Both the position numbers and the translations under genes were made by a program. A stretch of 24,234 nucleotides of DNA from a virus, in IMG/VR virus record IMGVR_UViG_3300034198_000611, positions 1 through 24,234 of that record; one strand, given 5' to 3'. Every line of letters starts with the position of its first letter. The stretch's first letter is position 1. Under the pieces are notes generated by a model. That model saw only the letters and a list, made by a program, of their open reading frames with translations, was not told the origin of the DNA and ran no database searches. Shown here piece after piece: positions 11,011-20,567 of the stretch.

Positions 11011-11414
11011 TTGAAAATCAACCTACGTATTGAGTTCCTCAGTGGTGAGAGCAAAGAAGTTATTTGTTCTGCTGCTGACCTTGTAAAGTTCGAGTCGAAG
11101 TTCGACATCAGTATCGCAACTTTGGAATCTGGTCTGAAGTACACTTACCTGTGCTTCTTGGCTTACAGTTCTGAAGTTCGCACTAAGGCTACTGACTTAG
11201 ACTTCGATGCTTGGATGGAAACAATTTCATCAGTTGGAACGAGTGACAAAGACCCAAAATAACTGGGTTGGGCGATGAGTCTGCTCATTGGTACATCGCC
11301 TCGCTTGCTTGCGAGACTGGCATCAGTCCTCGTGAGTTGATGATGCTAGATGACAGAATGTTATGGACTTTAGGTCGGTATCTTATCTGGCGCAATCAGA
11401 AGCAATCAATGTAG
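11011..11414 (+). CDS. Tail assembly chaperone with -1 frameshift
   Basis: The short form is 83 aa (11011-11262, TTG start, AAGGA upstream). A -1 shift on C CCA AAA at 11253-11259 avoids the TAA at 11260 and adds 51 residues, giving a 134-aa product ending at TAG 11412-11414. The added part reads ITGLGDESAHWYIASLACET then ISPRELMMLDDRMLWTLGRYL, typical of the long chaperone (lambda gpGT-like). A stem GGCGATG (11271-11277) with CATCGCC (11294-11300) lies 11 nt downstream of the slip site. The short and long forms would coat the tape measure protein and recruit tail subunits. Lying between major tail protein and tape measure, this is the expected position. Confidence 0.88.
11253..11300 (+). promoter_or_regulatory. 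Programmed -1 frameshift signal (tail chaperone)
   Basis: The slippery heptamer C CCA AAA is in phase at 11253-11259 and is followed immediately by the zero-frame stop TAA. A 7-bp perfect stem (11271-11277 with 11294-11300) lies 11 nt further. The reading frame opened by the slip encodes a recognisable chaperone C-terminus, which supports function. Confidence 0.85.
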
Positions 11415-16424: not shown

Positions 16425-16543
16425 TGAGCGTTTTTATTTGCGATTTGGCAGGATGCCCTAATGAGGGTGTTGAATACAACTTTGGTGAAGATGGCCCTGA
16501 ATGGGCTATGTGTGGCGGTTGTGGTGCAAGGCTGGTTGCTTAA
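16424..16543 (+). CDS. 39-aa zinc-ribbon protein
   Basis: This tiny ORF lies between two tail genes, with TAATG overlaps at both ends. It holds two cysteine pairs, Cys6/Cys11 (CDLAGC) and Cys30/Cys33 (CGGC), as in a rubredoxin-like zinc knuckle. Both junctions being exact and the cysteine spacing make it a genuine gene. Function is unknown; a small virion or host-directed zinc protein is possible. Confidence 0.65.
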   Translation: MSVFICDLAGCPNEGVEYNFGEDGPEWAMCGGCGARLVA

Positions 16544-16758
16544 TGGGTGACGAGAGACATCCAACTAATCAAGCCTTACTGCTTCGTATTGAGAGTAGGT
16601 TAACTGGCATTGAGTCTAAGATTGATACTCTTGCTGACCATGAGGATAGGTTGCGTGAGTTGGAGAAGGCTCGTTATCAGTCGGCTTGGATTACTTCTAT
16701 TTTGTCTTCTGCTATGGCATCTGCTATTGTTTATGTGATTGTGAAGGTGTTTGTATGA
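16543..16758 (+). CDS. Coiled-coil membrane protein (XhlA-like)
   Basis: This 71-aa protein has a polar start (MGDERHPTNQ), a heptad coiled coil at about residues 12-44 (LLLRIESRLTGIESKIDTLA) and one C-terminal membrane span (about 48-70, ending VIVKVFV). This architecture matches XhlA-like proteins, which can assist holins. Other single-span tail-region proteins share the shape, so the assignment is tentative. TAATG couples it to the zinc-ribbon gene and ATGA to the next. Confidence 0.65.
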   Translation: MGDERHPTNQALLLRIESRLTGIESKIDTLADHEDRLRELEKARYQSAWITSILSSAMASAIVYVIVKVFV

Positions 16759-17105
16759 TAAGTCCTGGAAATTACAACATTGTTTGCCCGCAGGGTGCAA
16801 CTTTTGACAGCACTTTCACTTTGACTGTTGGTGGGACTGCACAAAACTTTACGGGTTACACGGCTGCTATGCAAGTTCGTGATTCTGCTGGTGCTGCGAC
16901 AGCGTTGCTAAATTTGACGACTTCTAATGGCGGTATTACTTTGGGTGGTACTGCTGGAACTATTTTGGTGACGATTGCTGGTTCGGCAACTTCAGCGTTG
17001 ACTGCTGGTTCGTATTCTTACGATTTGGAACTTTATTCTGGGTCTGTAACTACTAGGCTTTTGCAAGGTTCCTTTAATTTGACTGGTGAGGTTACTCGTG
17101 CCTGA
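16755..17105 (+). CDS. BppU-like N-terminal fibre-domain protein
   Basis: This 116-aa protein is coupled by ATGA. It starts [20 protein letters not shown] and reads [20 protein letters not shown], then [21 protein letters not shown] and [20 protein letters not shown]. This is the form of the beta-sandwich domain found at the N-terminus of some baseplate or tail-fibre proteins (BppU-like), here as a separate protein. It overlaps the fibre gene that follows by 8 bp, so the two are probably made together, perhaps as a base and shaft. Confidence 0.68.
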
Positions 17106-17946
17106 TGTTGTTGTAACGGTTAGTGAAACTAACGCTACTGTTTCTTTGGGAACTGCTGGTTTGCAAGGGCTTAAGGGTGACACTGGTGCTACTGGCGCAC
17201 AGGGCGCAACTGGTTCTCAGGGTGCGACAGGCGCACAAGGCGCAACAGGCCCTAAGGGTGATACTGGTGCAACTGGTGCTCAAGGCGCTACTGGCGCTAC
17301 TGGCGCACAAGGCCCTCAGGGTATTCAAGGCGTAAAAGGTGACAAAGGTGACACTGGTGATACGGGTGCAACTGGTGCTCAAGGTGCAACTGGCGCTACT
17401 GGCGCTAACGGTCAAGGTGTTCCTGCTGGTGGCACTGCGGGGCAGTTGCTTTCTAAAATTGACGGCACAAACTACAACACGCAATGGACTACTTCCATTG
17501 CTCAATCGCAGGTGACGGGATTGACCACTTCACTATCTGGCAAAGCCGATAACGTCAACTCGCAAATAAACGGCACATACGGCAACGTCTCACTAAACGT
17601 AAATGGTAATAACGACTTCGATGCACCAGAGCCAATATTTCAAGTTCAACTGGATGGCACTAAAGTTCACGCAGTTGAATACAACGGCATAACAAATATG
17701 TATGAGGCTAAAACAGGTAAAATCTGGTCGCCTAACGACGTTAGCACCATACGCTTAGAGGTAAACAACTTAGGTTTACTAACCTCCTCTGGTAGTTACG
17801 GCGGTGGTGCTAGGGTCATCTTTATCGGTAACAGACAAACAGCCCCAACTTCAAACCCTTCAGGTGGCGGTATTCTTTACGTTGAATCTGGCGCGCTAAA
17901 GTATCGCGGGTCATCGGGCACTATCACAACCATCGCTAACGCATAA
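17098..17946 (+). CDS. Collagen-like tail fibre
   Basis: This 282-aa protein has a GTG start at 17098 inside the preceding gene's end. Residues from about 20 to 107 are an almost unbroken Gly-X-Y run ([36 protein letters not shown]), which would form a collagen-type triple helix. A conserved linker [19 protein letters not shown] follows, then a C-terminal beta-rich tip (about 150-282) ending [19 protein letters not shown]. The tip would make host contact and trimerise the fibre. Base use changes near 17500: the tip is richer in A and in AAC/AAA codons than the shaft, which suggests exchange of the tip by recombination. An in-frame ATG at 17086 is less likely. Confidence 0.85.
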
Positions 17947-18006
17947 TGATAGCGACTAACTAACAACAAAAAGACCATTCCTACGCACTTACCTGATTGG
18001 ATAATG

Positions 18007-19452
18007 ATGCGTAGATTCGCTCTTTTGTTTGTGTTTGTTTTGGCATTTACTTTGCCTGTTTCTGGTATGGCCTTTGCGAATTCAACTTCTGACTATAACA
18101 ATAAGGTTGCTGCTGCTAAGGCTAAGGTTGCCACTGCTGAAACTAATTTGGTTGCTGTTGAGGCACAGTTGGATGCTTTAAAAGTTTCGTCTAGTGGTGA
18201 TGCTGAGTTGTTGGCTGCTGCTCAAACTGCGGTGACTGTTGCTGAGGATGAACTTGATTTGGCTAATGCTGCTTATTTGTCGAATCGTGATGTTTATGAT
18301 GCTGCGTTGGTCAATGTTGAGAACGCTGTTGATGACGTTAATGATGCTGGTTTAGTTGTGTCTGATGCTGCTGATGTGGTTGATTCGGCTTATACAGATT
18401 ATGAGGCTGCTCAGGTTGCTACTGATGCTGCGTTGTCTGCGGTTGATTCGGCACAGTTAGCGTATGACGCTTCGGCTACGACTGTTGGTGGTCAGGCTTC
18501 TCCTGGTTTGACTATGCGTGTCTATAACGGTATTCAGTCTTACGGTAATCCACCGCAACGTTCTGATTCGTTTTACACACTTTGTAAAACTGCAACGGTG
18601 ACGCATATTGCTGATAACTGGGGCAATAGTTCGGTTGCTGGCTGTAACAGCGAGTATGTGATGATTCACTACACGGGTTACATTACTTATCCTGAGGCTA
18701 AGTCTGTCTATTTCTTTGCTCAGGCTGATGACGGTTTCTACATGACTATCAATGGTCAGCCTATTGTAAATGACTGGTCGTTGAAGGGTTGTAGCGGTAA
18801 TTCTGCTGGCTTGTTCACTTTTGAGGCTAACAAATCGTATGCGGTTGATGCATGGTTTTATGAGTGGACTGGTGGGGCTTGTTCGACTTTGTTTTATCAG
18901 CCTGTCGGTTCGGGCCAATGGTCTGTAACTCCTGCGTCTATGTTCTCTACAACGCCTGTAGCGGTCACATCTAAAGACCCTGCACTAAAGGCGGTGCTTG
19001 ACCAGAAAACAGCCCTCTATGTGGCTGCTGTGGCTGCTGAAGAGTCTTTGCAGGTCGCTTACTTTGATGCTGTAAATGTTTATGATGATGCTGTATCTGT
19101 GTTTGATGCTGCAACGTCAGTTCTTGACGATAAAGAGTTTGTTTTGGGTGAGGCTGAGTTTGTTTTGTCTGTTGTTGAGGCTGATTGGCAAAGTAAGTCT
19201 GACGTGTATTCTGATGCACAGTCAGCGTATTTGGCTCGTAAGCAACAGTTTGAGGTTTTGTTTAATCAGTTGAAAGCGAAGTCGCTTGAGGTTGATAATG
19301 CTCGTTTAGCGTTGGAGTCGGCTAAGGCTGCTTTGGCTGCTATTCCTAAGCCTGTTGCCCCTAATAAGGTTACTAAAAAACCTGTTGTGAAGCCTGCGCC
19401 GTCAGTGAAGCCTACGCCGAAGCAGGTGTTTGTGCCTGACCCAAAAAAGTAA
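18007..19452 (+). CDS. Exported PA14-domain coiled-coil protein
   Basis: This protein is about 481 aa (482 from the ATG at 18004). The N-terminus MRRFALLFVFVLAFTLPVSG is a signal peptide, with a likely cut near AFANS, which is rare for a phage virion gene. Residues 28-160 form an Ala/Val-rich heptad coiled coil, 165-310 a PA14 domain with the hallmark AQADDGFYMTINGQPIVNDW and four cysteines (194, 214, 263, 292) fit for disulfides. Residues 325-447 are a second coiled coil and the end is Pro/Lys-rich. PA14 domains often bind glycans. It may be exported to the host envelope, or be a host-like surface protein. It ends with a -1 frameshift signal. Confidence 0.85.
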   Translation: MRRFALLFVFVLAFTLPVSGMAFANSTSDYNNKVAAAKAKVATAETNLVAVEAQLDALKVSSSGDAELLAAAQTAVTVAEDELDLANAAYLSNRDVYDAALVNVENAVDDVNDAGLVVSDAADVVDSAYTDYEAAQVATDAALSAVDSAQLAYDASATTVGGQASPGLTMRVYNGIQSYGNPPQRSDSFYTLCKTATVTHIADNWGNSSVAGCNSEYVMIHYTGYITYPEAKSVYFFAQADDGFYMTINGQPIVNDWSLKGCSGNSAGLFTFEANKSYAVDAWFYEWTGGACSTLFYQPVGSGQWSVTPASMFSTTPVAVTSKDPALKAVLDQKTALYVAAVAAEESLQVAYFDAVNVYDDAVSVFDAATSVLDDKEFVLGEAEFVLSVVEADWQSKSDVYSDAQSAYLARKQQFEVLFNQLKAKSLEVDNARLALESAKAALAAIPKPVAPNKVTKKPVVKPAPSVKPTPKQVFVPDPKK

Positions 19453-19499
19453 CCCAACCAGAGGCAGCCGAAGGGTTGTTTGCTGTTCCTGTGTTGGGT
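19440..19499 (+). promoter_or_regulatory. Programmed -1 frameshift signal (PA14 gene)
   Basis: GAC CCA AAA AAG TAA offers two in-phase heptamers: C CCA AAA (19440-19446) and A AAA AAG (19443-19449), followed by the stop TAA. A 16-bp stem follows at once: 19452-19458 with 19493-19499 (ACCCAAC/GTTGGGT), 19459-19461 with 19489-19491, and 19463-19468 with 19482-19487, broken by one bulge and one mismatch. The same C CCA AAA heptamer, in the same phase, is used by the tail chaperone. The -1 frame stays open to 19667. Confidence 0.8.
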
Positions 19500-19667
19500 G
19501 CAATCTTTGAGGGTCTTGCAGAGTTTTTTGATGGCTTGAGTCAGATTGGTGCTGACTTGCCACCAGAGGTTCGTGAGAAGGCTCAACAGGTTGTTGTTTC
19601 TGCGATTATTGTTACACAGGTGGCGGGTACTGCTGCTCAGGTTGCTAGTGCTAGGAGAGTAAAGTGA
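19449..19667 (+). CDS. Frameshift extension of the PA14 protein (C-terminal anchor)
   Basis: Read in -1 from the slip site, this adds 72 residues: VTQPEAAEGLFAVPVLGAIF and onward, a hydrophobic stretch, a Pro-rich LPPEVREKAQQ helix, a second hydrophobic segment VVVSAIIVTQVAGTAAQVA and the basic end SARRVK. A hydrophobic segment followed by basic residues is what a C-terminal membrane anchor or sorting signal looks like. The product would be 554 aa in the long form, while the short form lacks an anchor. The other reading is a free 63-aa protein from TTG at 19476, but the AAGGG there is too close to the start. The gene ends in a GTGA overlap with the next ORF. Confidence 0.65.
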   Translation, partial: VTQPEAAEGLFAVPVLGAIFEGLAEFFDGLSQIGADLPPEVREKAQQVVVSAIIVTQVAGTAAQVASARRVK

Positions 19668-19828
19668 AGTTTTTGAAAGACCTTGTAGACCAGTTGTGGA
19701 CTTTGCTAGGTATGTTTGTTGCTTGGGTGGTTCTTGAGGGTTCTGCTAAGGATGTTGTGGGTTGGTGCATTTTGGGGTCGTTGGCTTTGTGGATGGTCAC
19801 TTTTCCGTTGCGTAATCGTGACGAATAA
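19664..19828 (+). CDS. 54-aa membrane protein
   Basis: This short ORF has a GTG start overlapping the previous stop (GTGA) and an AGGAGAG ribosome site (19653-19659). It has an amphipathic beginning (KFLKDLVDQLW), two hydrophobic segments (about residues 13-24 and 32-46, WCILGSLALWMVTF) and a charged end (RNRDE). Placed just before the endolysin and holin, it may be a second holin-type or anti-holin protein, but size and topology are the only evidence. Confidence 0.6.
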   Translation: MKFLKDLVDQLWTLLGMFVAWVVLEGSAKDVVGWCILGSLALWMVTFPLRNRDE

Positions 19829-19839
19829 TTTTCAAAAGT

Positions 19840-19845
19840 TAGAAT
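19840..19845 (+). promoter_or_regulatory. -10-like hexamer before the endolysin gene
   Basis: TAGAAT lies 6 nt before the ATG at 19852, so the transcript could start at the ATG and be leaderless. No clear -35 is found. It is the same hexamer as at 11456, at nearly the same distance from a start codon. The endolysin ATG has no obvious ribosome binding site, which supports leaderless translation. Confidence 0.4.
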
Positions 19846-19851
19846 AGTGCT

Positions 19852-20292
19852 ATGACTGTATTTAAAGAGCCTTTTGATAAGAAACTTCGTAATGACGAGT
19901 TTGGTAATCTTGCCCCTTACCGTAATGGTCGCCCTCACCGTGGTCAGGACTGGTCTCCGAAGGAACTAGCACCGCTTATCGCTATTTGTGACGCTAAGGT
20001 TCATAACGTTTTTTGGACTGATGTTCTTGGTTGGGTTATTGAACTTTGGGTGCAGGAAGAAAAGGTTTTTGTGCAGTATGCTCACGTTGCGCCTGACACT
20101 GTTGCTGTCAAGAAGGGTGACATGGTGAAACTTGGTCAGGTTATTGGCAAGGTTGGTGGCGGTAAAAAAACGCCTAGCGGTTCTGCCTCTACTGGCGCAC
20201 ATCTACATATGCAAGTTTCTAAGAAGGTAAACGGCCACTTGGCTGCTTACAGCGACCTTATTGACCCTTTAACCCTGTTTGGAAAGAAATAA
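19852..20292 (+). CDS. M23 (LytM-like) peptidase endolysin
   Basis: This 146-aa zinc peptidase is expected to cut peptidoglycan cross-bridges or stems at lysis. The M23 residues are complete: HRGQDW (His29, Asp33), YAH (His78) and HLHMQV (His117, His119). This gives the zinc ligands His29, Asp33 and His119 and a catalytic His pair. KKGDMVKLGQVIGKVGG (about 87-103) is the usual strand-turn region, and DPLTLF at the end is also standard. The enzyme is only the catalytic domain, with no signal peptide and no cell-wall-binding repeat, so export depends on the adjacent holin. A tail-linked role is less likely because of the holin next door (ATG overlap at 20292). Confidence 0.88.
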   Translation: MTVFKEPFDKKLRNDEFGNLAPYRNGRPHRGQDWSPKELAPLIAICDAKVHNVFWTDVLGWVIELWVQEEKVFVQYAHVAPDTVAVKKGDMVKLGQVIGKVGGGKKTPSGSASTGAHLHMQVSKKVNGHLAAYSDLIDPLTLFGKK

Positions 20293-20567
20293 TGAAGATA
20301 ACTTTTAATGTTGTTCTCCGCATACTTGCTACTTTTGTGGCTTCTGCTCTTGGTGTTATCGGTGCTGGTGCTATCGGTGGTGTGCCTGTTTGGGTTGCTG
20401 CCACTATGGGTGGTATTTTGGCTGTTGCAAAAGTTATTGAGCGTTTGAGTATTGCGTTCCTAGAGGATGGCAAACTTACTGAGCGTGAAATTAACTTAGC
20501 GTTCCAGCAGTCGGTCAAACTTCGTGATGATGGCATCCCTGTTGTAGAAGCCCCTAAAAAGAAGTAA
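20292..20567 (+). CDS. Holin
   Basis: This 91-aa protein is coupled to the endolysin by TAATG. It has two membrane segments, about residues 8-31 (ILATFVASALGVIGAGAI) and 33-48 (VPVWVAATMGGILAVA), then a soluble helix with REINLAFQQSVKLRDDG and a Lys-rich end (APKKK). This is the topology of a class II-like holin. Many actinophages have a similar protein beside the endolysin. It would form the pore that releases the peptidase and thereby set lysis timing. Confidence 0.78.
   Translation: MKITFNVVLRILATFVASALGVIGAGAIGGVPVWVAATMGGILAVAKVIERLSIAFLEDGKLTEREINLAFQQSVKLRDDGIPVVEAPKKK

Follow-up and report, generated by a model that had tools for sequence, protein, structure and literature searches.

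How does the PA14 gene of this phage end, and what would be gained if some ribosomes did not stop there? The window, meaning the whole stretch of DNA that was analysed, was a phage contig of 24,234 bases. Its terminase and capsid were nearest to those of Pontimonas phage phiPsal1, the host of which, Pontimonas salivibrio, is an actinobacterium. In the window the PA14 gene was flanked by a collagen-like tail fibre gene and lysis genes. The features on which the argument rests were the following.

11011-11262, + strand: tail assembly chaperone gene, separate from the PA14 gene
11254-11260, + strand: chaperone slippery site C CCA AAA, then TAA (codons GAC CCA AAA TAA, 11251-11262)
18004-19452, + strand: PA14 gene (open reading frame), zero-frame product of 482 aa
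19440-19446, + strand: slippery heptamer C CCA AAA (X XXY YYZ), in phase in the window and conserved in relatives
19443-19449, + strand: overlapping second heptamer A AAA AAG, in phase; among the listed sequences, in the window only
19447-19451, + strand: 5-nt spacer between heptamer and stem, AAG plus the initial TA of the TAA stop (19450-19452)
19452-19499, + strand: predicted stimulatory hairpin, outer stem ACCCAAC/GTTGGGT (RNA folding)
19446-19667, + strand: coding region in the -1 frame, C-terminal domain "D", 73 codons added after slippage
19664-19828, + strand: two-TM protein of 54 aa (WTLLGMFVAWVVLEGSAK...), the GTG start of which overlaps the D stop (GTGA)

The slippery site at the end of the PA14 gene

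The zero-frame codons at the end of the PA14 gene were GAC CCA AAA AAG TAA (19438-19452). The first-pass annotation, made without database searches, had claimed that C CCA AAA and A AAA AAG lie in phase before the TAA, that the -1 frame stays open for 72 codons, that a stem occupies 19452-19499, and that the chaperone near 11253 has C CCA AAA in the corresponding phase, immediately followed by a stop. These claims held: the sequence, phase and coordinates of the heptamers were as described, the -1 frame was open from 19449 to the TGA at 19665-19667, the stem was recovered by RNA folding, and the chaperone agreed in site, phase and stop. The objection that a spacer of 2 nt counts against a frameshift failed, because it had been measured from A AAA AAG, whereas CCCAAAA is the heptamer conserved in relatives; from CCCAAAA the true spacer was 5 nt and was therefore inside the usual range of 5-9 nt. 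The stem also started about 5 nt past the heptamer in most relatives, which carried TAATA where the window has AAGTA. As inferred from sequence alone, slippage at A AAA AAG would yield the same product as slippage at C CCA AAA.

IMG/VR was searched with the PA14 protein, which gave 14 loci, and with the -1 frame product, which gave 46 loci; an alignment-based search reported 297 relatives, and the best 80 of the 297 were kept. Removal of duplicates left 51 distinct frameshift-form sequences (50 related ones and the window). Wherever the PA14 gene was out of frame with the downstream domain, the domain was in the -1 frame, and an in-phase X XXY YYZ heptamer was present in all 51 distinct frameshift-form PA14 genes. 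The heptamer was CCCAAAA in 31, TTTAAAA in 19 and AAAAAAA in one; the stop came directly after it in 44 sequences and was one codon further on in 7. The frameshift form made up one group on a tree of the upstream protein, and on this tree the heptamer type had switched three times (C, T and A forms) with the X XXY YYZ rule retained; Pro-Lys and Leu-Lys endings had therefore replaced each other while the site stayed slippery. A chance heptamer was ruled out by 1324 other open-frame ends (frames of at least 70 codons, first 60 loci), which were scored for an in-phase CCCAAAA or TTTAAAA in the last three codons. Only 2 of the 1324 were positive, and both were explained, one being the tail chaperone of the window and the other a further PA14 homologue (L008). 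The frameshift signal was shown by comparison; that the PA14 gene ends in a programmed -1 ribosomal frameshift is nearly certain on this comparative evidence, with no expression data. One relative, L077 (4950-5010), was the sole frameshift-form sequence that had A AAA AAA and in which no hairpin could be detected, for which a different stimulator or a lower efficiency is possible.

Transcriptional slippage on the A run, producing a fused message, is a rival to ribosomal slippage, and the run of six A in the window (19443-19448) speaks for it. Four A are short for polymerase slippage, and only four were present in most relatives (CCCAAAA or TTTAAAA, then T). The phase rule and the hairpin at 5 nt also fit tandem tRNA slippage, and the transcriptional rival is regarded as very unlikely.

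The tail assembly chaperone served as a positive control. Its C CCA AAA was kept in 51 of 62 other listed relatives, and A AAA AAA was found in most of the rest. In the chaperones of L152, L155-L157, L159-L161 and L165 the C CCA AAA had given way to A AAA AAA, a swap of the same kind as that seen in one PA14 gene. That the PA14 gene might itself be the tail assembly chaperone (G/GT) was ruled out, as it lay between the collagen-like fibre and lysis genes, and not between the tail tube and tape measure genes as a chaperone would, and the chaperone was separate at 11011.

The downstream hairpin and the -1 frame

None of 520 control 60-nt windows in the same gene region matched the stability of the hairpin. 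Because the arms of the stem lie inside coding sequence, the native fold was compared with protein-preserving recodings built from the codons of the same genes. The window gave p=0.015, and p was at most 0.05 in 48 of the 51 sequences, meaning that the native sequence folded better than at least 95% of its recodings; L002 (p 0.085), L061 (p 0.15) and L077 (no stem, p 0.7, heptamer present) were not significant. A simple perfect-helix test was weaker, with a median p of 0.04. The Gly of the PxLG motif in the 3' arm was encoded by GGG in 40 of 50 cases, against 86 of 1619 Gly codons elsewhere (5%), and CCC was used for 46 of the 88 prolines encoded in the 5' arm, against 54 of 917 elsewhere (6%). 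The check on stem conservation was thus passed, and the hairpin is under selection at the RNA level, with the codon choice in both arms explained by pairing. RNAalifold, applied to the mixed alignment with its column-wise covariation, did not recover a stem shared by all, since the arms pair in different registers from clade to clade (ACCCAAC/GTTGGGT versus CCCCCAA/TTGGGGG), and the covariation analysis was replaced by the codon-choice and recoding tests. The usual 3' arm was lost near the PA14 stop of L042-L044 (TTAGGAGC); their 5' arm GCCCC was able to pair with GGGGC farther downstream, and the stem was possibly rewired.

Slippage would give a predicted fusion product of 554 aa with the junction peptide ...VPDPKKVTQPE..., also given as ...VPDPKKVTQPEAAEGLFAVPVLG..., whereas the 482-aa product ends in ...VPDPKK. 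The D domain of the window read IGAD..R..A..VVVSAIIVTQVA...RRVK, and the consensus of the D alignment was IGAD(L/M)xPxxRxxAxxVVxSAIIVTQVA...RRK. Of the substitutions in the D core, 75% were at third positions when the codons were read in the -1 frame.

A second rival takes D as a separate small gene, either with its own start or translated by ribosomes that re-initiate once they have passed the PA14 stop. In favour of this reading, AGAGG and GAAGGG lie upstream of a TTG at 19476 in the window. When the downstream frame was checked for a start of its own, the rival was not borne out: no ATG, GTG or TTG stood in the D frame ahead of the conserved core in 43 of 51 relatives, no ATG stood there in any of the 51, and none of the candidate starts had a Shine-Dalgarno-like motif at the tested spacing. 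A separate gene would also leave the invariant in-phase heptamer, the stem and the fused homologues unexplained, and this rival is again very unlikely. A coding -1 frame was shown by comparison, and D is very likely translated in that frame, with no expression data to hand.

The PA14 protein, domain D and the two-TM partner

The 482-aa product was divided into the following parts.

N-terminus: signal peptide, likely cleavage after GMAFA
Residues 28-155: long helix
Residues ~159-323: PA14 domain
Residues 326-445: long helix
C-terminus: disordered Pro/Lys-rich tail

Signal-peptide-like N-termini were also found in the PA14 homologues. Pfam PA14 matched the window protein with E=7e-5 and 23.1 bits, just under the gathering cut-off of 24, and was found at E<=0.001 in 9 of 14 relatives; PHROGs gave no match for the PA14 protein. 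In the AlphaFold models of the 482-aa protein of the window (mean pLDDT 82.8) and of a natural single-frame fusion, L048 (mean pLDDT 78.6), the PA14 domain was flanked by two long helices. As predicted by the models, the protein is likely to be a hairpin stalk with the PA14 domain at its tip. Foldseek aligned the PA14 part with the PA14 domain of MpAFP (E about 5e-9, target TM about 0.70), and the structure matches were to the sugar-binding PA14 domains of MpAFP and yeast flocculins, in agreement with the PA14 beta-sandwich fold. An Asp-Asp-Gly motif was invariant in the PA14 alignment and aligned with FhLap. Sugar binding by the PA14 head is inferred by analogy, without ligand data.

Domain D contained one 19-residue segment with a mean Kyte-Doolittle value of 1.55-2.4, borderline for a TM helix, and its C-terminus was basic, with an RRK end. 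It was predicted to be all helical at low model confidence and matched nothing in Pfam or PHROGs; an immunoglobulin fold was not seen in this prediction or by Pfam. An LPXTG-type sortase motif was absent from the D alignment, in which the conserved motif was instead IGAD(L/M)xPxxR. No match was found in the annotated phage collection, nor did a single scan of cellular genomes (84,980, bacterial and archaeal) give a convincing copy. D is likely to be a C-terminal domain found in phages only. The sole match of the cellular scan, a weak one of 26 residues in an Opitutaceae MAG (L060), was treated as unrelated.

Homologues fused in a single frame were searched for and were found in other phages, with PA14 and with other exported ectodomains; the fused homologues were shown by comparison. 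D and PA14 were in one frame in L013, L045, L046, L048, L081, L084, L086, L090, L092-L094, L096, L098, L117 and L123, and D was joined in one frame to other or unassigned ectodomains in L050-L058, L082, L085, L087-L089, L091, L099, L102, L125, L128, L130, L142 and L145. The single-frame fusions with the N-terminus present had a signal-peptide-like start, and a Pro-rich stalk preceded D in most. The D frame of L095 and L103 was broken by a stop in the Pro-rich stalk without a slippery heptamer there, which may reflect an assembly error or decay.

The gene after D encoded a two-TM protein of about 53-60 aa, and its start lay -1 to +5 nt from the D stop in 46 of the 51 frameshift loci. This gene was found in 105 of 108 D loci and in no locus without D, with the caveat that most of these loci had been fetched through D. 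An unbiased set of 25 loci of at least 12 kb, found via the chaperone or phiPsal1, contained 6 loci with both D and the two-TM gene and 19 with neither. The conservation of the module was shown by comparison. The two-TM protein carried the highly conserved motif WTLLGMFVAWxVLEGSA and had no match in Pfam, PHROGs or the annotated phage collection; it is possibly holin-like or an anchoring partner of D. A bolder reading, towards which the evidence leans slightly, is a widespread phage module for surface display, in which D and its constant two-TM partner carry exported ectodomains that can be swapped; in one lineage, -1 frameshifting would let the stalked lectin be made in a secreted and in a membrane-held form.

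The sister phage L107, the chaperone of which was ~98% identical to that of the window, lacked the collagen-like, PA14, D and two-TM genes altogether. There (L107, 15378-15710) the counterpart of the 85-aa gene found at 16501-16758 in the window directly adjoined the M23 gene, with none of these genes between the two. The block present in the window (about 3 kb, 16759-19851, compared with L107 15378-15710) comprised a 139-aa gene, the collagen-like fibre, PA14-D and the two-TM gene. Because so close a sister phage is without it, the block looks like an exchangeable cassette and is therefore accessory. Further along, a short hydrophobic protein (20292-20567) matched PHROG 26427, named "nuclease" (E 4e-24), and also weakly matched a holin family; the name is doubtful because the protein looks membrane-type.

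The first-pass annotation had also claimed that hydrophobic segments and a basic tail form a membrane anchor. This was partly upheld, as one borderline helix, the RRK end and a two-TM partner were found and not several clear TM segments. D is likely to be a membrane anchor, an inference drawn from the borderline hydrophobic helix, the RRK end, the signal-peptide-like N-termini and the two-TM partner. A third rival accepts the frameshift and takes D as a docking or assembly domain, for example to the virion or a cell-wall component. In its favour, the hydrophobic segment is only borderline, the PA14 gene adjoins the collagen-like tail fibre gene, and most of the frameshift extensions known in phages decorate the virion (PMC5009743, PMC6669499). 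However, the signal peptides on the frameshifted and fused proteins speak against cytoplasmic virion assembly, D is constantly paired with the two-TM gene, and the whole block, missing from the sister phage whose chaperone is nearly identical, is thus not a core virion part. The docking rival is considered unlikely.

Proposed mechanism and place among known systems

Under the anchor reading, a ribosome close to the PA14 stop would read CCA AAA, and the hairpin 5 nt downstream together with the nearby stop would favour a simultaneous slip of tRNA-Pro and tRNA-Lys one base back, onto CCC AAA. Most ribosomes would stop at the TAA and release the 482-aa exported protein, with its PA14 lectin-like head, coiled-coil hairpin and disordered basic tail. 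A fraction would go on for 73 codons and add D, giving the 554-aa protein. D would most likely tether the stalk by its base in or at the cytoplasmic membrane of the host, with one helix followed by RRK inside, and the two-TM protein encoded immediately downstream would probably join D in anchoring. The frameshift would fix the ratio of released to anchored lectin; slippage would also take a share of the ribosomes to the two-TM start codon and may set the dose of the two-TM protein. As a whole, this explanation, in which -1 frameshifting determines the relative amounts of lectin that are secreted and held in the membrane, is likely, with efficiency, topology, sugar binding and purpose all inferred. 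As to purpose, likewise inferred, the lectin may coat or alter the infected cell surface, or it may cap receptors late in infection; such roles fit because the product is late, accessory and lectin-like.

A fourth rival, compatible with this explanation, holds that the main purpose is regulatory: ribosomes reading D end on the two-TM start and re-initiate, so that slippage sets the dose. The start of the two-TM gene does overlap or nearly touch the D stop in 46 of the 51 frameshift loci. However, the D sequence is strongly conserved, and the single-frame fusions keep the same overlap without a frameshift. As the main purpose, regulation is unlikely.

In the literature searched, frameshifting in phages was known mostly for tail chaperones and virion decorations: the tail chaperone itself, Ig-like or carbohydrate-binding extensions on capsid or tail proteins, and a few further cases (PMC5009743, PMC6669499, PMC10885494). 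Capsid and tail proteins of phages gain C-terminal domains by frameshifting, and a given domain can be in frame in some phages and out of frame in others (PMC5009743; also PMC6669499). The PA14 gene resembles the lambda-type G/GT chaperone (window copy at 11254) in the C CCA AAA, its phase and the stop directly after, and in being a late gene with a ratio of short to extended product. It differs in encoding an exported PA14 lectin, in lying before the lysis genes and in its clear conserved hairpin; PA14-D is dispensable for tails, because the sister phage is without it. Like the Ig-like and carbohydrate-binding extensions of T3, A2, SPP1 and lactococcal 936 TpeX (PMC5009743, PMC6669499), D is a modular C-terminal domain that is added by frameshifting or fused in frame. 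Unlike in those extensions, the sugar-binding part is in both forms, the added domain is helical and phage-only, a signal peptide is present and the protein is probably not part of the virion. The PA14 domain shares its predicted fold and conserved Asp-Asp-Gly motif with those of bacterial adhesins and yeast flocculins (MpAFP, FhLap, Flo5, Epa1), whereas in the phage it lies between the two long helices of a stalk protein. The superinfection-exclusion lipoprotein Ltp of Streptococcus thermophilus prophages (PMC3952083) is likewise a phage protein displayed on the host surface; no sequence relation to it was shown, and PA14-D differs in its PA14 stalk and its frameshift-made anchor, the anchor being inferred.

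No report of a PA14-D protein or of frameshift-made membrane tails in phages was found in the open-access literature searched, which fits the earlier claim of a new use of this signal in phages. The principle of a frameshift-added C-terminal domain is shared with known cases, and what is likely new is its use on an exported, probably non-virion protein with a different kind of domain. A deeply conserved signal would decide if a phage protein that is exported and non-core receives its probable membrane tail. The analysis also revealed an unnamed module of D and a two-TM protein in aquatic phages, the nearest isolated relative of which infects an actinobacterium, and the role of this module may be to remodel or shield the surface of the infected cell.
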